46,570 nt of DNA, taken from a virus. The position numbers and the translations under genes were made by a program. The stretch covers positions 1 to 46,570 of IMG/VR virus record IMGVR_UViG_3300048918_000239. The stretch is one strand, 5' to 3'. Below the pieces are notes generated by a model. It was not told where the DNA came from and ran no database searches. It saw only the letters and a program-made list of their open reading frames with translations. Numbering within the stretch: position 1 is the stretch's first letter; the number at the start of each line of letters is the position of its first letter. Positions 1,548-46,527 of this stretch are shown here, one piece after another.

Positions 1548-1900
1548 TCACCGACGACAAACCGCTCAGCCCAAACGAACAGGAAGCGAACGCCTTGAAG
1601 GCGATTGCGCGCACGGAGGATGGCGCTTTGCTTCATCGATATCTCAGGCGTGTTTTGGAAGGCGTATTTGACTTCGAAACGGATGGTGCGTTGCGAGCCC
1701 ACAATGGCCGACGCACGTTGGCGCGTGACCTGATGCGGCTCATGGCCGAGGGAATTGATGACCGACGCACCGACCAATCCGGCGATCCCATCCTCGCCCG
1801 CGCCAGCAGCGGCGGCACCCCCGTCGCCGCCCGCCGCGGCGCCGGCCGCCGCATCACCGCCGACACCCGCACCGCCTACGACGCCGACCGCGAGCGCTGA
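1544..1900 (+). CDS. Small conserved-type phage protein between portal and scaffold
   Basis: A 118-residue protein starting at an ATG that overlaps the portal stop (ATGA), which implies translational coupling. The first 75 residues look like a genuine folded helical domain (rich in Leu, Arg and Glu, with LLHRYLRRVLEG near residue 30). The last 48 residues are Arg, Gly and Ala rich and share DNA with the start of the scaffold gene in another frame. I do not recognise a function. Small helical proteins in this position occur in many podoviruses. The tail after residue 75 may simply be what the scaffold's proline-alanine codons force in this frame. Confidence 0.6.
   Translation: MITDDKPLSPNEQEANALKAIARTEDGALLHRYLRRVLEGVFDFETDGALRAHNGRRTLARDLMRLMAEGIDDRRTDQSGDPILARASSGGTPVAARRGAGRRITADTRTAYDADRER
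1685..1695 (+). promoter_or_regulatory. Late-module 11-mer GGTGCGTTGCG, copy 1
   Basis: Exact copy of the dispersed 11-mer, lying inside the preceding small gene and 73 bases before the scaffold ATG. Bases 1686-1691 (GTGCGT) can pair with 1711-1716 (ACGCAC). Being inside a coding frame, this copy is the weakest candidate on position, but it precedes the scaffold and capsid module as the other copies precede theirs. Confidence 0.5.
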
Positions 1901-5381: not shown

Positions 5382-5406
5382 TTGGGCTCACCGCGACGCG
5401 ACTGAA

Positions 5407-5429
5407 GGCGGCCTACGGGCCGTCTTTTT
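5407..5429 (+). terminator. Rho-independent terminator after the head genes
   Basis: A seven-base-pair stem (GGCGGCC at 5407-5413 with GGCCGTC at 5418-5424, including one G-U pair) closes a TACG tetraloop and is followed at once by five T residues. It lies 26 bases after the last head gene and 3 bases before the dispersed 11-mer, so it marks a boundary between transcription units. Confidence 0.85.
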
Positions 5430-5432
5430 CGT

Positions 5433-5443
5433 GGTGCGTTGCG
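5433..5443 (+). promoter_or_regulatory. Late-module 11-mer GGTGCGTTGCG, copy 2
   Basis: Exact copy placed 3 bases after a strong terminator and 40 bases before the tail adaptor ATG. A short hairpin follows (GTGCC 5448-5452 with GGCAC 5458-5462), with the likely ribosome site GAGG overlapping the loop and right arm. The terminator-then-element order argues that new transcription, or a processed transcript, begins around here. Confidence 0.7.
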
Positions 5444-5472
5444 GGCGGTGCCCGTGAGGCACACGGTCGGCC

Positions 5473-6156
5473 ATGTCCTTCGAATGGCCTATCGACAAAT
5501 TGGGTGTGATCAACTCGGCTCTTTCGCAGACCGGGGACAATCAGGTCGCGACTGCGGATGACGGGTCCGACGAGTGGATTACCTGTTCGCCGGCCTATGA
5601 GGACGCCCTTCCGGCGATGATCGAGGGGCATCCTTGGTCGTGGACCTCGGATGTCCGCGTGCTACCGCCTGCTGCGAACGCTCCCGACGACGACCAATTC
5701 GACACCGCCTGCAACCTGCCGGCCGATCTCGTGCACCTCGTTTGGGTTCGCCTCAACGACATGCCGTGCGTATGGGATATTCTGGACAACCAGCTTGTCG
5801 TCAACGCCATGGGCGGGCCGCCGGCGCCGCCAGCCGGCACCGTGACGCCCGCGGTCATCACGATCAAAGGTGCGTTCTCGACGAATTCCGATCCGACGTT
5901 TGCGACCCCACTTTTCGTGTCGGCACTCAAGCGCTTCGTCATGTCCGGAATCTACCGAGGCTTGCACGAGGATGTGGCGACCGCTGTTGCGATGACCGCC
6001 GAGGGAACGCGTCTCCTGGCTGAGGCCAAGTCACGCCACGACATGCAGAAGCCGAAGCGGGCGATGTTCAATTCGCGCATCACCGCCTCGCGCCGTATCC
6101 GCCGACCGTGGCCGCCGGTCCCTGGCGGCTGGGGTGGCACGGGCATCCCCGGCTGA
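5473..6156 (+). CDS. Tail tubular protein A (adaptor), T7 gp11-like
   Basis: A 227-residue protein. The N-terminal third (INSALSQTGDNQV, then a segment ending in PAMIEGHPWSWTSD) matches the common pattern of podoviral tail tube A or gatekeeper adaptor proteins, in which several helices pack below the portal and an early helix carries the INxAL motif. Later helices contain LFVSALKRFVMSGIYRG. The protein forms the ring that joins portal to nozzle. It is directly followed by the nozzle gene, the canonical pair. The C-terminal 30 residues are Arg, Pro and Gly rich and look disordered. Confidence 0.82.
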   Translation: MSFEWPIDKLGVINSALSQTGDNQVATADDGSDEWITCSPAYEDALPAMIEGHPWSWTSDVRVLPPAANAPDDDQFDTACNLPADLVHLVWVRLNDMPCVWDILDNQLVVNAMGGPPAPPAGTVTPAVITIKGAFSTNSDPTFATPLFVSALKRFVMSGIYRGLHEDVATAVAMTAEGTRLLAEAKSRHDMQKPKRAMFNSRITASRRIRRPWPPVPGGWGGTGIPG

Positions 6157-16323: not shown

Positions 16324-16334
16324 GGTGCGTTGCG
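16324..16334 (+). promoter_or_regulatory. Late-module 11-mer GGTGCGTTGCG, copy 3
   Basis: Exact copy starting 4 bases after the stop of the giant ejection protein and 61 bases before the next start. GGTGCG (16324-16329) can pair with CGCACC (16351-16356). A second hairpin (CGGCGG 16361-16366 with CCGCCG 16377-16382) then presents AGGGA in its loop, 8 bases before the ATG pair. Confidence 0.7.
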
Positions 16335-16384
16335 ACCGGTTCCCCATGGCCGCACCCTGCCGGCGGATCACAGGGACCGCCGCC

Positions 16385-16744: not shown

Positions 16745-18088
16745 ATGAACCGTCGCGAACTTCTTGCAGGCGCGGCGATGCTGGCCGGAGCCGGTCAAGC
16801 AAATGCATTCGGCATCGGCAAGCTTGGCGCGCGCGGCGGCATGGGCTCTCTCGGTAACCTTGGGGGAGCGAGTAGCCCCCCGCTGGCATACCCGCAAAAC
16901 TACGCTGAAATCGGCGATAGCATTCCGTGGGCGCAGTCCGGCGTGGCAAACAATTCGATTTGCCAGATTGGTCAATGGATCAATGGGTTCAGCGCGGGCC
17001 GAATCAAACTCGTCCAGGGGTTTAATCAGGGCGTAGGAGGCCAGACTTCGACAACCATCGCGGCGCGATATACGTCGTCATTGACATCGCTGAACGCCAA
17101 AATAGTTCTTGCGAATGGCGGCATTAATGACCTCGGCGCCGATGTGGCGGCCACTACCATTCTTACCGCCTGGGACAGCATGATTTCTCAGGCTGCGGCG
17201 CTCGGACACTATCTCATAGTGCTGCCGCCGATGCCAACGCTTCAACTTACTGGACCGCAAGAAACGCAACGTCAGCTTGTTGTTGCCGGCCTGAATGCGC
17301 GGGCTTCCTCAACCGTTCGGGTGATCGACATCACCGGGTATAATTACACTACGATGGATTATGCCCAGCAGGTCGGCGGAAATCGTATCCATCCGAATAT
17401 TGTTGGAGCGCAGTGGTTAGGAGCGAAGGGCGCGGCGATCGTTGCGACAATCGTCAAGCCGGCGACGGGCCTGGGTACAGGGTTACTTGCTGCGACCGAT
17501 CCGCTCAATAAAGCCACCAACGGCTATATGTCGGGCACTGGCGGCGCGCTGGCGGGCATCGCGACGGGTTCGCTTGCGGACAGTTGGACGGCTGCTGCGA
17601 CGACGCAGGGCAACGTCACGATGGCCTTGAGCAAGGTAGCGAGGGCGGCGGGAGGTAGTTGGCAGCAGGTACAGATCGGCGGCACATTTATCCCTTCGAC
17701 CAATAGCGTGAGCCTTCAACTGAACGGCAATACGCTCACCGGATTTGCAGCCAATGATATGGTTGTGATGATGATGGACATGCAGGTGGACGCGGGGGCC
17801 GTGAACGTGGACGGCATCAGCGTTAGCGGCCTGCTTTTCGAGACTGGATTTGCGAGCAATTTCTTCACGCAGGTCTACTACGTCAACACTACGGAGCACC
17901 AGGGCGGCTATGGCACGCCCGTCTCGAATTATATTGTGCAGTCCGAGCCGTTCAATCTTGCGGCCGGAAAAGTCCCCGGCACCTTGAACATTTTTGTTAC
18001 TCCGAACCTGAATCAAGACGCCGGCTCAGGTGCCGCCTGCGCAATCACCTTCCGATTAGGTAGCGTAGGGATCAAGAAATATACATGA
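16745..18088 (+). CDS. SGNH/GDSL-type esterase with twin-arginine-like leader
   Basis: A 447-residue protein. Residues 1-21 form a leader with MNRRELLAGAAMLAGAG and an AxA-type end (QANA), resembling a twin-arginine signal. The SGNH blocks follow in order: GDS with Ser59, a block II glycine in GVGGQ near 97, GGIND with Asn128, and IHPN with His216. The residue three before the His is Asn213 rather than the usual Asp. Residues about 230-447 are a beta-rich domain with no charged clusters, probably for trimerisation or carbohydrate binding. Such esterases remove acetyl groups from surface polysaccharide during adsorption. Codon use looks more AT-rich than in the neighbouring ejection genes, suggesting acquisition. 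Confidence 0.8.
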   Translation: MNRRELLAGAAMLAGAGQANAFGIGKLGARGGMGSLGNLGGASSPPLAYPQNYAEIGDSIPWAQSGVANNSICQIGQWINGFSAGRIKLVQGFNQGVGGQTSTTIAARYTSSLTSLNAKIVLANGGINDLGADVAATTILTAWDSMISQAAALGHYLIVLPPMPTLQLTGPQETQRQLVVAGLNARASSTVRVIDITGYNYTTMDYAQQVGGNRIHPNIVGAQWLGAKGAAIVATIVKPATGLGTGLLAATDPLNKATNGYMSGTGGALAGIATGSLADSWTAAATTQGNVTMALSKVARAAGGSWQQVQIGGTFIPSTNSVSLQLNGNTLTGFAANDMVVMMMDMQVDAGAVNVDGISVSGLLFETGFASNFFTQVYYVNTTEHQGGYGTPVSNYIVQSEPFNLAAGKVPGTLNIFVTPNLNQDAGSGAACAITFRLGSVGIKKYT

Positions 18089-18213: not shown

Positions 18214-18224
18214 GGTGCGTTGCG
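18214..18224 (+). promoter_or_regulatory. Late-module 11-mer GGTGCGTTGCG, copy 4
   Basis: Exact copy 41 bases before the tail-fibre ATG. It is followed by a hairpin (GGCAGG 18232-18237 with CCTGCC 18245-18250, 7-base loop) that ends 4 bases before the start codon and may limit ribosome access. Confidence 0.7.
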
Positions 18225-18254
18225 GTGCCCGGGCAGGCGTTCATCCTGCCGCCC

Positions 18255-20708
18255 ATGACCTTGATCCGCCGCCTGATCCTCGCATTCGTCCTGATGGCCG
18301 GGATTGCCCCGGCAATGGCCCAGGCTCCCGCGCCCGTACCGGCGCTTCCTGACACCGAGCGGCGAACCTCCTATTCGATCACCGGCACGACTTGCGCATG
18401 TAACGTCAACTTCGCGCTATATGGTGACGGCACCGATTACCAGAATTGGGTCGAGGTTTATCTGAACGGCACCCGCGTCAACTACAATGACGCGACGTTC
18501 GGATGGACGATCACGAGCCCGTCAGGGACGATCGGCAGCCTCGCGCTCCCGATCACCGACGCGAAGCTGACCTTCAATTCCGTGCAGACCGGCGTCGTTC
18601 AGATCGTTGGTGCCCGCCGTCCACGGCGCGTCTCGCAGTTCAGCGAAAATCAGGGCGTTCCGGCGCGCAACCTCAACCAAGTCCTGACCGACATCATCGC
18701 GCAGAACCGCGAGATTTGGGACAAGACGAGCGACATGACGGGGCGCGGGTTATTCTTCGCGCCCGGCAACACGACGGGTCCGATGCCTTCGCCGTCGTTG
18801 TGTGCGAGTGCGTTCCTGTCCTTCGACGCAACCGGTCTAAATCCGCAATGTCATGCGGGCGGCCCCGGGTCGGGAAATGTCGTTGGGCCAGCCACCTCGA
18901 TCATCGGCGACGTCGCGCTGTTCAGCAACACGACCGGCAGCGGGTTGCAAGATGGCGGCCCGATCCGCACCGGTATCACAACCCCCGTCACGCTCTACGT
19001 CAATCCATCCTCAACGACCGCCGCAAGCTGCAATGGATCATCCGGCGGCATCGGCAGCGATAGCAACGCCGGCACGTTGGCTGCGCCGTTCCTAACGCCG
19101 AACCATGCGATCAATGTTGCCCTGACAAACTACGACGTTCGCCAGTCACAGGTTACGATCCAGTATTGCGACAACAACGTCACGGGCGCGACCTATCCTG
19201 TCGCGCAGATGAACGCGAACATGGTCGGCGCTGTCAGCGACAACGGGGCGAGCGGCGCTCAACTGATTATTCAGGGCAATAGCTCTACCCCATCTAACGT
19301 GATTGTGCAGGGAGCAGCCGGCGCCAACGGCATCAGCCTGATCGGCGTCACGTCTCCGATCCTCGTTCGGAATATGCAGATCGGAGCAACGCTGATTGGC
19401 GGGGCCACGACTGGCCACGGTATCGGGGTCGATGCACACAGCATGTTGCTCTACTCGAATATCGTGTGGGGTTTCACCAGCACCAGCTATGCGCACGTCG
19501 CCGCGACATACGGCTCTTTCGTCGAACAAGAGGGTGTCGAGAAAATCATCGGCGGCGCCGCGCTGCATTGGTACGCGGATCGCGTCAGCCAGATACTGTT
19601 GACCGGCCAAACGATCACATGCACGGGCACTCCTGCGTTTGCGTCGTCGTTCGTCGCAATGTTCAATGGCTCGGTCTTTACGCTGAGCGGGTCGTCGTTC
19701 TCTGGCTGCAGCGGCGTCACCGGCACACGCTATCAGCAGGATTTTACGTCCTCCTTCGGATCGAGCTCAACCGATCCAAACTCGGTATTTCCCGGCAACG
19801 CCAACGGCAGCGTGGCGATTCCGTCGTTCTATTATTCCGGTATTGTCGTAGGCAATGGCGGTCCTCCGACCGGTGCATCCTCGCCGATGACGACAATGCC
19901 GGCATTGAACGGTGATTGCACGCTCGTGCTCTCGACAGGGGTGATCACCTGCATCAAGACGAATGGATCGGCGTTCGGCGCGCTTGCAACGGTGACGCCA
20001 GGAGCCGGCGTTGCGACGGCGCTTGCGATTGCGCCCAATACTGCGGGCGGCTTCATCACCTATCCGCAAGCCGCCCCCAACATTCAGGTGTTCACGTCTG
20101 GCACCAACGCGACCTACACCACGCCGACCAGCCCGTCCCCCGTCTATCTCGAAATCGAATTTGTAGGCGGTGGCGGCGGCGGTGCCGGATCAGGAACGTC
20201 ACCAGGGGCCGCTGGGGCTGGCGGGAACACCTGTTGGAATACGAGCGGAACGGCATGCTCGTCCCCGCTTTATCAGGGAACTGGCGGCGGCGCTGGTGCG
20301 ACTGGAACGTCTGCTGCCGGCGGGGGTGTTGCTGGATCATTGTCGTGCGCCGACAGTCAGACGGGCGGGACGGGCGGCGCAGCTACGGGTTCGACTTCGG
20401 CGCCTGGCGGGATGGGAGGGGTATCTCGCTATGGTGGCGCTGGCGCGTTTGGGCCGCCGGCAGGCAACGGGCTTGCGGCGATAGCCAATACTGGTTCGGG
20501 CGGTGGCGGCGCAGGTGACAACGCAACCGCGAACACCGGCGGTGGCGGCGGCGCCGGCGGATGGTGTTACGCGATTATCTCGTCACCGGCGGCGAGCTAC
20601 GTCTACACGGTCGGCGCCGCTGGCGCCGCTGGTACGAACGGGACCGGCGGTACGTCAGGCGGGGGCGGGGCTGCCGGAAAAATCCGCGTCATCGCGCATT
20701 TCGACTAG
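18255..20708 (+). CDS. Tail fibre with T7-type head and glycine-rich tip
   Basis: From ATG 18255 the product is 817 residues; a GTG at 18225 in frame lies too close to the leader element. Residues 1-22 look like a signal peptide (MTLIRRLILAFVLMAG, then AMA), unusual for a fibre. Residues about 35-150 match the T7 gp17 N-terminal tail-attachment domain: a Tyr-Ser-Ile-Thr-Gly strand, VYLNGTRV, and RNLNQVLTDIIAQNREIWDK. A long beta-helix-like shaft follows. Residues about 640-817 form a Gly-rich tip (GGGGGGAGSG, GGGGAGD, GGGGAGGW) like polyglycine-II adhesin sandwiches that bind receptors. Stop codons overlap those of the convergent oxygenase gene. Confidence 0.84.
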   Translation: MTLIRRLILAFVLMAGIAPAMAQAPAPVPALPDTERRTSYSITGTTCACNVNFALYGDGTDYQNWVEVYLNGTRVNYNDATFGWTITSPSGTIGSLALPITDAKLTFNSVQTGVVQIVGARRPRRVSQFSENQGVPARNLNQVLTDIIAQNREIWDKTSDMTGRGLFFAPGNTTGPMPSPSLCASAFLSFDATGLNPQCHAGGPGSGNVVGPATSIIGDVALFSNTTGSGLQDGGPIRTGITTPVTLYVNPSSTTAASCNGSSGGIGSDSNAGTLAAPFLTPNHAINVALTNYDVRQSQVTIQYCDNNVTGATYPVAQMNANMVGAVSDNGASGAQLIIQGNSSTPSNVIVQGAAGANGISLIGVTSPILVRNMQIGATLIGGATTGHGIGVDAHSMLLYSNIVWGFTSTSYAHVAATYGSFVEQEGVEKIIGGAALHWYADRVSQILLTGQTITCTGTPAFASSFVAMFNGSVFTLSGSSFSGCSGVTGTRYQQDFTSSFGSSSTDPNSVFPGNANGSVAIPSFYYSGIVVGNGGPPTGASSPMTTMPALNGDCTLVLSTGVITCIKTNGSAFGALATVTPGAGVATALAIAPNTAGGFITYPQAAPNIQVFTSGTNATYTTPTSPSPVYLEIEFVGGGGGGAGSGTSPGAAGAGGNTCWNTSGTACSSPLYQGTGGGAGATGTSAAGGGVAGSLSCADSQTGGTGGAATGSTSAPGGMGGVSRYGGAGAFGPPAGNGLAAIANTGSGGGGAGDNATANTGGGGGAGGWCYAIISSPAASYVYTVGAAGAAGTNGTGGTSGGGGAAGKIRVIAHFD

Positions 20709-21501: not shown

Positions 21502-21512
21502 GGTGCGTTGCG
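21502..21512 (+). promoter_or_regulatory. Late-module 11-mer GGTGCGTTGCG, copy 5
   Basis: Exact copy in the divergent gap between the leftward oxygenase and the endolysin, 58 bases before the endolysin GTG. Here its own GTTGCG (21507-21512) can pair with CGCAAC (21520-21525) around a 7-base loop. Confidence 0.7.
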
Positions 21513-21526
21513 GCGTTGGCGCAACC

Positions 21527-21557
21527 GTCCATCGTGTGCCCGAAACGGGAGATGGAC
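21527..21557 (+). promoter_or_regulatory. Hairpin sequestering the endolysin ribosome site
   Basis: GTCCATC (21527-21533) pairs perfectly with GATGGAC (21551-21557). An inner CCCG (21539-21542) pairs with CGGG (21546-21549) around an AAA loop. The only good ribosome site for the endolysin (GGGAGA) lies in this fold and the GTG start follows 2 bases later, so translation of the lysis enzyme may be gated by RNA structure. Inference from base pairing only. Confidence 0.5.
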
Positions 21558-22648: not shown

Positions 22649-23425
22649 ATGAACCAGACCCTTTTCCTGTCTCAGCTTCGCGTCATCATCCTGGTCGGCA
22701 TCGCGTATGCGGCCGGCAAAGGCTGGCTTTCCCCTGCGGACAGCACTGCGCTTACGTCTGTTCTCGCGCCACTTGGCGTCATCATCGGGCCGTGGCTCTG
22801 GTCGATCTACAGCAACTTCAATTCGAAGCTGGTTCCAAAGGATAGCGTCGTGATCGAGCCGCACACGCCGTCAGACGCGGCCGCGCCCGTCGGGGCAAAT
22901 GTCGCAGGCAAGGTGATCGCTGTTCTGCTTGTCGCCTTCGCGCTATCGTTTCTTGTGGCAATTCCTTCGGCGATGGCTCAGGCGCCGAAGCCTCGGCCGC
23001 AGATCAACTTCCCGATCGACCCGCTGGGACTGAACAAGCCCGGCGCGCAGACCGGCGATATCGGCTACGACCTTTTGAAAGCCCTCGACGCAAAGCTGCT
23101 GCCCGATCTGCAATATGCATTGCTACTCGCCAAGGCCACCAGCTCGAACGTCACTGCCGGTTGCTATCAGGCCTGGATCGACATGATCACGGTCCAGCAG
23201 ACCGCGGTGAAGGATTCGACAGGCGCCGAGATTGCCACACCCGATCCGCATCTGGTCACAGACTTTGAACGCATGGTCGAACTCCGCAACGCGCTACAGC
23301 CGGATTCGAAGTTCATGGTCGCGTGTTCGCCCGTCGCCAACATGGTGAAGCAGGACGTCATCAAGTTCATGGGCATCATTATATCCGGCGGCGCCGGCCT
23401 CGCAACGATGGTTCCGGGTCTCTGA
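22649..23425 (+). CDS. Holin-like membrane protein with long C-terminal domain
   Basis: A 258-residue protein with hydrophobic segments at about 8-25, 38-55 and 90-112, and a hydrophobic end (FMGIIISGGAGLATMVPGL). The first 70 residues (LVGIAYAAGKGWLSP, then a PLGVIIGPWLWSIYS segment) resemble small phage holins of the Pam3-gp28 type. The third segment ends in PSAMAQ, like a signal cleavage site, and is followed by about 140 residues that would lie in the periplasm. It may be a fusion of a holin with an exported domain. The position after the endolysin supports a lysis role. Confidence 0.62.
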   Translation: MNQTLFLSQLRVIILVGIAYAAGKGWLSPADSTALTSVLAPLGVIIGPWLWSIYSNFNSKLVPKDSVVIEPHTPSDAAAPVGANVAGKVIAVLLVAFALSFLVAIPSAMAQAPKPRPQINFPIDPLGLNKPGAQTGDIGYDLLKALDAKLLPDLQYALLLAKATSSNVTAGCYQAWIDMITVQQTAVKDSTGAEIATPDPHLVTDFERMVELRNALQPDSKFMVACSPVANMVKQDVIKFMGIIISGGAGLATMVPGL

Positions 23426-26321: not shown

Positions 26322-27383
26322 TTAACTACCACCAGAAGTGCGGCGTCGATGCGCCACACGACCAATTATAGTGCTCGCAACTTTGCCGGTCGCACCGCGC
26401 GCATACTTCTGCGTCTGGTTGATGTCGGCGTGTGTCGCGGCGTGCTTGATATGCTCGATAGGGATGCCGGCCTCCGTGGCCTCGGTGATACCGCCGGCAC
26501 GAGAGTCCATATTGCGGACCGTCTTTGGCACACCGGCCTTCGTGGCAACCAGGCGCCACTTGCGCCGAAACTCGGCGGCACGGAATGGTAGTCCAGTTAT
26601 ATTATTTAGGATGACGGGGCCGCGTGCTGGCAACTCTTGGCGATCGATTACCTCTTCGCCAGTGTCTGGATCAGCCCGAACGCTCTCCGGAAATTCCAGC
26701 TTCAGTTCCTCCATGACCATCGGCGCGAGCTTCAGGTCAAATTCGATGGGCTTCTGCCGCTTGCTGGTGATATGGCGAAGGATCAAATTTTCGTCGATCT
26801 CCTGCCATGTGATACCTCGCAGCCACTTCTCGCCTTGATGTGTGACGTTAGATTCGCCGGGTTCGTCGAGCGGCACCCACTCGCCTATGACATCTTTCTG
26901 TCGCAGGATTACTTCGTATTGGAAGGCGTTCGCGAGCGCGATCGTATCCCAGCCGAACCAGTAATGTGCAGTGCTTCGGACGGCCACGACCTGGTCTGCT
27001 GTCAGATAATCCGTCCTGGGCAGCGGCGCTGCAAATCTCAGCTTGTTCAGCACGACGCAAAGACGCTCGCACTCCGGATCTTCGAGCATGGTCAGGCCAA
27101 ACCGGCAAAGGGTCCGTAGCTGGCTCATGAAGGAGTGCGCCATTGCCGTCTTGCCGCCGCCGAGCCAATCCATGTGCCAAAGTCGTATCTCTCTGGCTCG
27201 AATGGCGTTCAGCTCGAAGTGACCATGGCTTGCCGCCAATCGCTTCAGCAACGTTTCTTGGTTCTTTCGGACGTGAAAACGCAGCTTGTGAAAGGTTGAA
27301 ACAGGGTCCGTCCGATAGGTCTGGATCAGCTCGCCGAGAGTGCGACGTTTCGAATTAGGCACTTCTGGATTTTGCTCAATCAT
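26322..27383 (-). CDS. Divergent tyrosine recombinase (second integrase)
   Basis: A 353-residue protein. C-terminal residues fit the tyrosine recombinase core: Arg161 (ILRQKDVIGEW), Lys208 (TSKRQK), Arg295 in NMDSRAGGITEA, His318 in AATHADI and nucleophile-type Tyr327 in QTQKYARG. The usual His of the HxxR box is Met292 here. N-terminal residues 15-110 look like a helical core-binding domain. Related proteins with an SRAGG box are known to me from Bradyrhizobium prophages. It may be an integrase in its own right or a partner or control factor for the canonical integrase upstream. Transcribed with the early operon. Confidence 0.78.
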   Translation of the reverse strand: MIEQNPEVPNSKRRTLGELIQTYRTDPVSTFHKLRFHVRKNQETLLKRLAASHGHFELNAIRAREIRLWHMDWLGGGKTAMAHSFMSQLRTLCRFGLTMLEDPECERLCVVLNKLRFAAPLPRTDYLTADQVVAVRSTAHYWFGWDTIALANAFQYEVILRQKDVIGEWVPLDEPGESNVTHQGEKWLRGITWQEIDENLILRHITSKRQKPIEFDLKLAPMVMEELKLEFPESVRADPDTGEEVIDRQELPARGPVILNNITGLPFRAAEFRRKWRLVATKAGVPKTVRNMDSRAGGITEATEAGIPIEHIKHAATHADINQTQKYARGATGKVASTIIGRVAHRRRTSGGS

Positions 27384-27542: not shown

Positions 27543-28574
27543 TCATTTTCTGTCCACCAGCTTGCTCATGCCTGCGCGTGCGAGCTTCTTCTGATCGGCG
27601 GCTTTCGTGTAGCGCTCGACCTCCTTCAAGGTCTTGTGGCCGGACACGGCGGCAATTTGTTTGTCGGTTGCGTCGTGCTCGGCTAGGCGCCGCATAGCGG
27701 CCTTCCGGAGCCCGTGAGAGACACAGCGTGGAGGGAGGCCCGCGCCCTTGATGGCCGCGCGCATCAGCGCCGATAGCGTGGCTCGCTTGATGGGGCGCCC
27801 GTGAGGGTCGCCGATGAGGTTCAGGCCGTTCGCCTTGTAGGCTTTCATGGCCCTTTGAAGTTCCGGGGCGATCGGTATCCATACCTTGGCGCCGGTCTTC
27901 TCCTGGACAACGTGGATCATGCCGTCAGAGATGTCCGCTCGCTTCATCTTCGCCACGTCTCCGACGCGCTGGCCGGTATGGAGGAGCAATGCATAGGCGA
28001 GCCGCTGGCGCGTTCCTGGACGCCATTTGGCCTCGAACTGGTCCAGTTCGGCATCGGTCCATGTATGGTGCTCGCCGACCTTGAAAGCCTCGATCGCCAG
28101 AAATGGATTGTCCTTCCGACGCTTCAGCTTGATCGCCAGCTTCATCACACGGCGCATCACCGAGAGGGTCAGGTTCCCCATTCCCGGCCGGCTCTCGCCG
28201 ATCTTGTTGATGATCTTCTCGGCGTTCTCGGCCGTCATCAGCGTGGCCGACCTGTGGCCGTGTTCCCTGGAAACCGGGTCGAGCGCGTAGCGGTAAAGCT
28301 GGCGGGTTGAAGGCTTCCGGTCGGTGAACAACCTAGATCCGTAGAAGTCGATAATCAGCTTGGCGAGCGAATCCTCGTGGACTGTCAGTTTCGCTGCGGC
28401 CGGTTTGGCGGCGAGATAGGCGGCATAGGCCGTCATGAACTCTTCGGAACCGATCTCGCCGGGGAGCGGGCCTAGCTGTTTGCCGCCCTTGCGGAAATAT
28501 CGGCGCTTTTTCCCGGTGTGATCGACATATTCGTTCACGTACCTGAGCTTAAGGTTTGCCACGGGAATCCCCAT
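27543..28574 (-). CDS. Tyrosine-type site-specific integrase
   Basis: A 343-residue protein from ATG 28574 (a GTG three bases earlier is in frame). All catalytic residues are visible in order: Arg203 in LLHTGQRVGDV, Lys226 in EKTGAK, His287 and Arg290 in SHGLRKAA, His313 in SGHKTLKEVE and Tyr322 in RYTKA. Residues about 60-150 are the helical core-binding domain. The first 30 residues are basic with an aromatic strand, like an arm-binding domain. It should integrate and excise the phage genome at attP, probably in the adjacent gap. Canonical length. Start overlaps the upstream stop. Confidence 0.93.
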   Translation of the reverse strand: MGIPVANLKLRYVNEYVDHTGKKRRYFRKGGKQLGPLPGEIGSEEFMTAYAAYLAAKPAAAKLTVHEDSLAKLIIDFYGSRLFTDRKPSTRQLYRYALDPVSREHGHRSATLMTAENAEKIINKIGESRPGMGNLTLSVMRRVMKLAIKLKRRKDNPFLAIEAFKVGEHHTWTDAELDQFEAKWRPGTRQRLAYALLLHTGQRVGDVAKMKRADISDGMIHVVQEKTGAKVWIPIAPELQRAMKAYKANGLNLIGDPHGRPIKRATLSALMRAAIKGAGLPPRCVSHGLRKAAMRRLAEHDATDKQIAAVSGHKTLKEVERYTKAADQKKLARAGMSKLVDRK

Positions 28575-28762
28575 CACGCGTCATCCCAGGATGCTGCGAG
28601 GGCTTTTTCCCGATTGTCCACGGTCTGAGGGCCGTTTTCCCCATCTACCGCGATCGAGCCGTCCGGATTGACCGTGATCCGGCGCACCTTCAGGCCGGCG
28701 CTTTCCGCCGCCTTTACGGCGCGGCGCACTTGGGCTTGGGTGAATGTAACAGCGCGGGTCAT
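28574..28762 (-). CDS. Small conserved protein upstream of integrase
   Basis: A 62-residue protein from ATG 28762; a TTG six bases earlier is also in frame. MTRAVTFTQAQVRRAVKAAE, then GLKVRRITVNPDGSIAV is a pattern I know from many rhizobial prophages, often beside an integrase. The position and size would suit an excisionase-like or DNA-binding factor, but no helix-turn-helix is obvious and that role is a guess. Its stop overlaps the integrase start. Confidence 0.75.
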   Translation of the reverse strand: MTRAVTFTQAQVRRAVKAAESAGLKVRRITVNPDGSIAVDGENGPQTVDNREKALAASWDDA

Positions 28763-43229: not shown

Positions 43230-43240
43230 GGTGCGTTGCG
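43230..43240 (+). promoter_or_regulatory. Late-module 11-mer GGTGCGTTGCG, copy 6
   Basis: Exact copy in the 225-base divergent gap between the HTH gene and the terminase small subunit, 119 bases before the terminase ATG. The rest of the gap holds no gene I can support. No -35 and -10 pair is obvious immediately upstream. Confidence 0.7.
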
Positions 43241-43348
43241 CGGCCATCGAACCAAGCGCATCAATCCCGCGCGTCCCGCATCGCGCCCGCGTTCCTTCCA
43301 CAGCGAGCCTGCGAGCGAGGACCATGAGGAAGGCCAAGGGCCGACGAC

Positions 43349-43816
43349 ATGCCATCAGCCAGCGTTGCAGTTCCGATGGATAATCGGCCGCCCAGCGTCC
43401 CTGACGAGCCAAAACCCGTCAAAGAGCCCCGCATTTCCAAGCGAATGCGGAAAGTGCTTACGGCGCTCGCAACCAAGGGCATGACCCAGCGCGAGGCCGC
43501 GAAACAAGCCGGAATGAGCGAAACCTATCTCTCGACCGCGTTGAGGAAACCGGAAATACAGATGTTTGTCGCTCGCGCGATCAGGCAAAACGTCGCCATT
43601 GGCGCGCTGCGAGCATCTTCCAGGATCGTGGATCTCATCGACGCCGGCTCCGAGCACGTGAGCTTGGACGCATCGAAGCACATCCTGGCGATCGAGGGCG
43701 TAAAGCCGAGGCAAGACGCTCAAGTGAATGTAAACATTGAGCAAAAGGCGGGTTACGTCATCGTGCTGACGCGGAGAGCGGATGAGCCGTCAGTCATCGA
43801 TGTGACACCGGACTGA
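43349..43816 (+). CDS. Terminase small subunit-like protein
   Basis: A 155-residue protein. Residues 30-75 hold a helix-turn-helix (RMRKVLTALATKGMTQREAA, KQAGMSETYLSTALRKPEIQ) as in terminase small subunits and Nu1-like proteins. The rest is helical with a Gly-Val-Lys-Pro segment (LAIEGVKPRQDAQ) and a beta-strand end. It recognises the packaging site and loads the large subunit, encoded two genes later. Position and size fit. Confidence 0.78.
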   Translation: MPSASVAVPMDNRPPSVPDEPKPVKEPRISKRMRKVLTALATKGMTQREAAKQAGMSETYLSTALRKPEIQMFVARAIRQNVAIGALRASSRIVDLIDAGSEHVSLDASKHILAIEGVKPRQDAQVNVNIEQKAGYVIVLTRRADEPSVIDVTPD

Positions 43817-45923: not shown

Positions 45924-46379
45924 ATGGACCCGATCATCCTGAAAGCGTCTGAGCCGATGCGCTGGACGATCGTTTTCCACCGGAAGGCCGAAAGCTGGTT
46001 CTTCGGCCTGATCGCGATGGGCAGGTTCAAGCACGTCTCTGCGTTCGCCTGGCTGCCCGACGTGCAGCGGTGGCTCGTCTACGACGTCGGCTTCCGGCGG
46101 ACCCGCATCTTGGTTTTGCCTGACACCGCCGAATCCAAGGCTCATCTAGCCCACGTCATCACCGGCAACGCGATCGTCACGATGCCGGTGCGCGCTGACG
46201 CCTTACCGGTGATGCGCCTCGGCTTGTTTTGCACAAGCGCGGTCAAGCACTTGATCGGGCTCGGCGGGGGTGCGTTGCGACCCGATGCCCTTTTCGCGTC
46301 CTGTCTGCGTCACGGAGGTGAATTGTCCGACGATGCAGGCCCAGCAAATTGCTCAACCAGTAGATCCCAACCTGGCTAA
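45924..46379 (+). CDS. Second permuted papain-like (NlpC/P60-type) protein
   Basis: A 151-residue protein. His37 in GRFKHVSAFAWL followed by a strand pair (RWLVYDVGFRRTRILVLP) and Cys103 in GLFCTSAVKHLIG give the permuted His-then-Cys order also seen in the lysis-cassette protein at 22135-22638. The C-terminal 20 residues are disordered and overlap the next gene. Proteins like this occur between terminase and portal in many podoviruses; activity unproven. It could trim a virion component or act on the wall during entry. Confidence 0.65.
   Translation: MDPIILKASEPMRWTIVFHRKAESWFFGLIAMGRFKHVSAFAWLPDVQRWLVYDVGFRRTRILVLPDTAESKAHLAHVITGNAIVTMPVRADALPVMRLGLFCTSAVKHLIGLGGGALRPDALFASCLRHGGELSDDAGPANCSTSRSQPG
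46269..46279 (+). promoter_or_regulatory. Late-module 11-mer GGTGCGTTGCG, copy 7
   Basis: Exact copy inside the end of the preceding gene, 64 bases before the small gene that leads into the portal. Like copy 1 it is within coding sequence but precedes a head module. Confidence 0.6.
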
Positions 46380-46527
46380 CGAACAGCAGCAGGCGCAGCA
46401 GCAGCAAATTTCGACGCTGCAGACGCAGGCTTTGGGCGACACCAACGCGCTGATGGCTCGCTACGGAACCAAGCTCGCGCTGTCGGGCCTTCCGACGTCG
46501 CCGGTGCCAACCGTGGCGGCGCGCTAA
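46333..46527 (+). CDS. 64-residue Gln-rich protein before portal
   Basis: From ATG 46333 (GGAGGT 13 bases upstream, a loose spacing; GTG 46318 is in frame). The sequence MQAQQIAQPVDPNLANEQQQ, then a Gln and Thr-rich stretch and DTNALMARYGTKLALSG, is a small helical head-associated protein. Similar short Gln-rich proteins precede portal genes in podoviruses. Its stop overlaps the next ATG (TAATG). Confidence 0.68.
   Translation: MQAQQIAQPVDPNLANEQQQAQQQQISTLQTQALGDTNALMARYGTKLALSGLPTSPVPTVAAR

Follow-up and report, generated by a model that had tools for sequence, protein, structure and literature searches.

The locus raises the question of why one 11-base word, GGTGCGTTGCG, recurs on a single strand of a viral genome ahead of its late genes. 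The window analysed here is a whole IMG/VR contig of 46,570 bases. The virus is a podovirus; its TerL is of the BcepC6B type, and portal, capsid and tail genes were also found. It is probably temperate, since the window carries two integrase genes and a CI-like repressor. Prophage forms exist among the TerL relatives, one of them in Bradyrhizobium sp. Arg816.

The seven exact copies listed in the original prediction were all recovered, on the + strand and in late units (Table 1). No copy was found on the - strand of the window, and the reversed-word control also gave zero. The word is the 11-mer with the highest count in the real window. When the window was simulated 60 times with a third-order Markov model, no run gave an 11-mer with seven copies; the maximum was six in two runs and usually three to four. 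The inner 9-mer has an expected count of 0.235 in the window, and none of the flanking columns is conserved across all seven copies. The modules first assigned to the copies hold as far as placement before late units is concerned; the assignment to the portal gene needs amendment, as the copy at 46269 adjoins a small ORF (start 46333) and the portal start lies near 46527, with the gene running over the contig end.

A total of 40 relatives were collected via TerL and their contigs oriented TerL-forward. The core GTGCGTTG was found 116 times in forward and 10 times in reverse orientation in 17 contigs, the window included, and this core or its one-base shift is among the most over-represented 9-mers identified de novo in most of them. 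Held-out relatives contain 63 forward and 3 reverse cores, the more distant and mostly marine relatives (TerL 41-45% identity) 92 and 13, and the isolate Mwe-JY08 7 and 1. The motif precedes TerS in relatives as well, and the marine copies are likewise located before TerS-like genes, after TerL and further downstream. The motif signal is absent from BcepC6B, Pelagibacter phage Hodr and MEP301. In the most distant among the 17 contigs, the major capsid proteins, where detectable, are only 22-28% identical, so conservation of the word does not extend to what surrounds it. A search of related phages for a motif conserved in position and not in surroundings had been proposed as the check, and motif and position are indeed kept. 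The bases flanking the core are genome-specific (-1 is always T in contig G010, +8 always T in G014), which is expected if one trans factor reads every copy of a genome. A Bradyrhizobium host genome contains 233 core copies against 218 of the reversed control. This lack of enrichment denotes that the word is not a host-wide signal, and a host-wide promoter type was rejected.

Two further observations were made on the relatives. The mostly marine set L089-L156 has kept TTTGTGCGTTG at equivalent late positions; its early genes appear to be encoded on the other strand, and no LatA homolog (see below) was detected. Mwe-JY08 (PP395640.1, L158) has Microcystis as recorded host, yet shares promoter, LatA and gene order with alphaproteobacterial phages; its true host may be an associated bacterium.

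The claim that no consistent -35/-10 pair is visible proved wrong: if the motif is taken as the -35 element, (C/G)AnnnT follows at fixed spacing in five of the seven window copies and in most copies of the relatives. This second element lies 27, 28 or 29 bases downstream of the core in most copies (EM score 904 versus 626-659 in controls). Among held-out copies, which were unused in discovery and less than about 80% similar to the discovery copies, 42 of 64 possess it at 27-29 where about 4 are expected; in other prophages the figure is 13 of 17, with an expectation of about 1. In the marine relatives the score is only modestly above controls (314.7 versus 268.6-299.8), and about half of the copies have TG at offsets 25-26, the place of an extended -10 TGn. 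Taking the A of ATG as +1 yields a sigma-type geometry with TTG at -35, AnnnT at -11 to -7 and C at -1. The second element thus has the A at -11 and the T at -7 of a sigma-70-type promoter. On the -35 side, TTG lies 16-18 bp from the -10 if the box is read TTGCnn; in comparison to TTGACA, the ACA is absent and an upstream GTGCG is fixed. The predicted -10 is GC-rich and far from TATAAT, and its strict form is missing in two of the seven window copies, those of TerS and portal, which have imperfect -10 elements. Scans for consensus sigma-70 promoters and terminators gave no clear excess over shuffles, which for sigma-70 is explained by the distance of these promoters from TTGACA/TATAAT. No tandem upstream copies of the box were seen. 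Both elements, with their spacing, strand, position and conservation, are established by sequence statistics.

Of the 116 copies, 7 come directly after an intrinsic terminator, and these belong to the tail unit or to a late gene close to it; for random positions the figure is 23 of 4,000. The terminator originally noticed just before the second copy of the window was confirmed as a hairpin with a T run (Table 1). A terminator directly before a copy means that transcription must restart there, and this fits a promoter rather than an RNA element.

The start codons are placed in the same frame of reference. ATG occurs at offsets 39-42 in 55 of the 116 copies against a background of 1.7 per offset, and 47 of these 55 have C at -1. 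Mean anti-Shine-Dalgarno energies were -2.5 kcal/mol for motif-led starts, -2.8 for random ATG and -5.5 for operon-internal starts (p = 1.5e-8). These ATGs are genuine gene starts, because homologs of tail tube, TerS, fibre and scaffold genes begin there across genomes, and two annotated CDS of Mwe-JY08 begin at offset 40. With an ATG at the predicted +1 and no Shine-Dalgarno sequence, many of the late mRNAs should be leaderless. Within the window, the tail and fibre genes fit leaderless starts, and short leaders are present at the scaffold, secreted-protein and lysis units. Alphaproteobacteria can translate leaderless mRNAs, and 171 of them, all AUG, were mapped in Sinorhizobium meliloti (PMC3616915). 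The predicted phage mRNAs would share with them the ATG at +1 and the missing Shine-Dalgarno sequence; unlike in the S. meliloti set, one promoter type is predicted to provide leaderless starts repeatedly throughout an entire phage late regulon.

Table 1. Proposed late promoter elements and associated features in the window
Feature	Position	Strand	Basis and remarks
Late promoter upstream (-35-type) element, scaffold/capsid unit	1685..1695	+	Exact motif; relatives have motif at same position; within end of ORF 1544-1900
Predicted -10 element CACGTT, predicted +1 near 1726	1714..1719	+	(C/G)AnnnT at offset 28
Intrinsic terminator just 5' of tail-unit promoter	5405..5432	+	Hairpin and T run; six relatives have similar ones at the equivalent copy
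Late promoter upstream element, tail tube unit	5433..5443	+	Exact motif; relatives
Predicted -10 element CACGGT	5462..5467	+	(C/G)AnnnT pattern
Tail protein gene (phrog_394), predicted leaderless mRNA	5473..6156	+	ATG is predicted +1 (5473/5474); ATG offset 38-42 in homologs
Late promoter upstream element, secreted small protein (ATG 16385 or 16388) and lipase/esterase gene (16745-18088)	16324..16334	+	Exact motif
Predicted -10 element CACCCT, predicted +1 near 16365	16353..16358	+	(C/G)AnnnT pattern
Late promoter upstream element, fibre unit	18214..18224	+	Exact motif; relatives
Predicted -10 element CATCCT, predicted +1 near 18254	18242..18247	+	(C/G)AnnnT pattern
Fibre-like protein, 817 aa, predicted leaderless start	18255..20708	+	ATG offset 40; 39-41 in homologs of relatives
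Late promoter upstream element, lysis unit	21502..21512	+	Exact motif; likely start GTG 21560; holin-family protein 22649-23425
Predicted -10 element CATCGT, predicted +1 near 21542	21530..21535	+	(C/G)AnnnT pattern
LatA, candidate late activator, 185 aa	41961..42518	+	N-terminal lambda-repressor/XRE-type DNA-binding domain, basic helical C-terminus; HMM homologs, model, motif linkage
Late promoter upstream element, terminase small subunit gene (43349-43816)	43230..43240	+	Exact motif; before TerS in relatives too
Imperfect -10, GCATCAAT, TerS copy	43258-43265	+	Read downstream of copy 43230
Late promoter upstream element after TerL, before small ORF (46333) and portal gene	46269..46279	+	Exact motif; same position in relatives including marine; strict -10 pattern absent

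Several features of these genomes are worth recording separately. Two tyrosine-integrase-like genes adjoin each other on the - strand of the window (26322-27383 and 27543-28577), and homologs in related contigs were found for the first only. The portal gene spans the contig ends (46527 to 46570 and 1 to 1547) and its frame is broken if the ends are simply joined; the genome is therefore probably circular or permuted, with a few bases missing at the join. In the fibre-like protein (18255-20708) and its homologs in G001-G006, a signal-peptide-like stretch (MTLIRRLILAFVLMAGIAPAMAQ...) precedes a tail-fibre-type N-terminus (VPALPDTERRTSYT), and the G007 homolog begins without this stretch. It would be unusual for a virion fibre to carry a secretion signal. 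Moreover, a small gene of about 200 aa, ending ...GISRRTWYRRR..., lies just 5' of TerS with its own leaderless-type late promoter in three relatives (G002:4573, G005:13512 and G014:3505), and gave no PHROG match.

A candidate for the protein that reads the box was found at the end of the early genes. In each of the 16 contigs extending to this region, a syntenic HMM homolog of this protein, LatA, precedes the first late promoter, and further homologs were found in a Bradyrhizobium prophage, one MAG prophage, one other contig and Mwe-JY08. LatA was not assigned by Pfam, PHROGs or NCBIfam. Its AlphaFold model (pLDDT 88.7) consists of an N-terminal four-helix domain of the lambda-repressor type and a basic helical C-terminus, and the best Foldseek matches, HipB and C.Esp1396I, have probability 1.00 and target TM up to 0.87 with a best E-value of just 0.0098. 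The modelled structure thus gives LatA a predicted lambda-repressor-type helix-turn-helix fold. A palindromic site is expected for a dimeric XRE protein, but the box is not palindromic.

The linkage between LatA and the box extends beyond the TerL relatives. A LatA search of 149 Bradyrhizobium genomes revealed 28 further loci, mostly prophages with other terminases; 26 of them are in genomes without the window-type TerL, which occurs only in G017, G033 and G155, the last with two loci. Within 260 bases before to 1,000 bases after the LatA stop, the exact core is present on the same strand at 17 of the 28 loci and on the opposite strand at none, whereas about 0.4 would be expected by chance from the host density of 233 in 9.7 Mb, both strands. 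Most of these copies fall within the latA 3' end, and since two reading frames are involved, a conserved peptide does not account for them. These Bradyrhizobium prophages usually have a single motif copy followed by an ordinary leader. At the other 11 loci the exact motif was not found nearby. No motif was found in the DNA searched of L089, or of L086, which has a weaker LatA-like match. A separate case is the TerL relative L207 (G155:C108), in which LatA lies a short way upstream of TerL; it has no GTGCGTTG in 20 kb and may use a changed box. A single-sequence LatA scan of viral contigs gave no relatives, as LatA evolves fast. A class-wide search of 385 genomes yielded only the known prophage and two weak partial matches, and Mwe-JY08 was the only match among annotated phages. 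The same kind of statistics underlies the start-codon placement, the missing Shine-Dalgarno sequences and the LatA linkage.

Taken at this level, GGTGCGTTGCG is very probably the -35-type half of a bipartite late promoter that would be used by the host polymerase, most likely under activation by LatA, and often with leaderless products. The promoter would consist of the box GTGCGTTGC, the core of GGTGCGTTGCG, 18-20 bases, (C/G)AnnnT as the -10, and a start about 7 bases on. Transcription would begin at the predicted +1, with the host polymerase presumably as the enzyme, and at many genes the ATG itself would be +1 and give a leaderless late mRNA. LatA would be made from the end of the early operon; its linkage and fold suggest that it binds the GTGCG(TTGC) box, most likely to recruit or redirect the host polymerase. 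The late units, each with its own promoter copy (terminase, portal, scaffold/capsid, tail, fibre and lysis), would be switched on together by LatA. Of the readings first offered for the word, that of a late promoter read by an unknown factor has strong support from the second element at -10 spacing, the start codons at the predicted +1, the terminators at tail copies and the conservation. With moderate confidence, we further propose LatA as the first member of a family, as yet unnamed, of late activators in phages, which take over the host polymerase's -35 contact via a 9-bp box, serving up to nine promoters with mostly leaderless mRNAs, with the box kept in terrestrial prophages, Bradyrhizobium prophages with other terminases, and marine relatives.

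A real promoter might instead be read by another factor, such as a phage or host alternative sigma factor or a different phage activator. LatA would then only lie nearby and might, for instance, regulate the early-late switch at other sites. Marine relatives retain the motif with LatA undetectable, and the genome-specific -1 and +8 bases fit any trans factor. However, the window ORFs scanned, which include only part of the small ORFs, gave no sigma or RNA polymerase family match above the cut-off, and the motif lies beside LatA at 17 of the 28 Bradyrhizobium loci that were found via LatA alone. We regard this possibility as unlikely, and it is the one that survives best. An element acting at the RNA level in late leaders, whether for antitermination, processing or enhanced translation, is much less probable. 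It would suit copies that are mostly intergenic, on a single strand and ahead of late genes, but the motif lies upstream of the predicted +1, its tail-gene copy directly follows an intrinsic terminator, start codons without Shine-Dalgarno sequences lie 40 bases downstream, the second element, CAnnnT at a fixed spacing, is not a pairing partner, and Rfam gave no match. The antitermination, RNA-processing and RNA-leader options that had stood beside the promoter are accordingly not favoured, and an RNA element downstream of the transcript start was rejected. Still less credible is a repressor operator or an architectural or packaging site: a short DNA word does adjoin the gene of an XRE-type protein, yet it occurs before late units only, in strict orientation and at fixed distance to a -10-like element and start codon. 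The coding of a conserved peptide, suggested by copies within ORF ends (1685 and 46269, in the 3' end of the upstream ORF, and LatA 3' ends in other prophages), is close to negligible and refuted for the whole set, as reading frames differ, intergenic copies exist, and the word is conserved in relatives whose TerL identity is 38-45% and whose GC ranges from below 0.4 to 0.7.

The LatA promoter proposed here displays likeness to several known systems. In MotA-dependent middle promoters of T4, which work by sigma appropriation through MotA/AsiA, a phage box stands in for the -35 element next to a sigma-70 -10. This MotA box, TGCTTtA, has its centre at -30 and lies 12 +/- 1 bp from the -10 (PMC2988021). 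Both systems combine what is here presumably the host polymerase with a non-palindromic phage box of about 9 bp that replaces the -35, a host-type -10, TGn in about half of the promoters, and a small phage activator made early. Unlike the MotA box, GTGCGTTG spans roughly -40 to -33, leaving about 19-21 bp between its end and the -10; the MotA DNA-binding domain is a double-wing while the LatA model is a lambda-repressor-type/XRE helix-turn-helix, and MotA serves middle genes whereas the present promoter serves late genes. Membership in the MotA/AsiA family was rejected on box spacing and activator fold. As with lambda Q and pR', the candidate regulator gene closes the early operon and is followed immediately by the late genes, and the other Bradyrhizobium prophages usually have a single late promoter beside latA. 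However, lambda Q is an antiterminator at one promoter, and the present system has as many as seven to nine promoters, each separate, at which no antitermination site was apparent. LatA has no Pfam match to the Q families, and a Q-family protein was rejected with LatA lacking Pfam, PHROG and NCBIfam assignments. The lambda CII promoters likewise pair a lambda-repressor-like DNA-binding fold with a TTGC-containing -35 region. CII requires two TTGC repeats ten bases apart, whereas the present box has a single TTGC with no second conserved one upstream or downstream. A phage RNA polymerase gene had been reported absent, and no match was found among the early genes scanned or the large late ORFs; a T7-type single-subunit polymerase promoter was rejected on this ground and because a 9-bp box with a separate CAnnnT replaces the contiguous form of about 20 bp. 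In gene order and TerL homology the virus resembles short-tailed phages with BcepC6B/BPP-1-type terminase and portal, and BcepC6B differs in being without the motif. Among the papers listed on phage late promoters with leaderless mRNA, none described this system, and of the 420 literature matches to the word, none of the 20 listed was about phages.

The analysis offers a late-gene switch for a widespread and almost uncultured group of alphaproteobacterial phages. Transcript starts are predicted to the base, annotated start codons are corrected, and a testable activator gene that is covered by no family library is named. The motif can be used for finding late units and prophages of this type in metagenomes. 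Moreover, structural genes of short-tailed phages are predicted to be launched from leaderless mRNAs, which would make leaderless translation under high expression testable.
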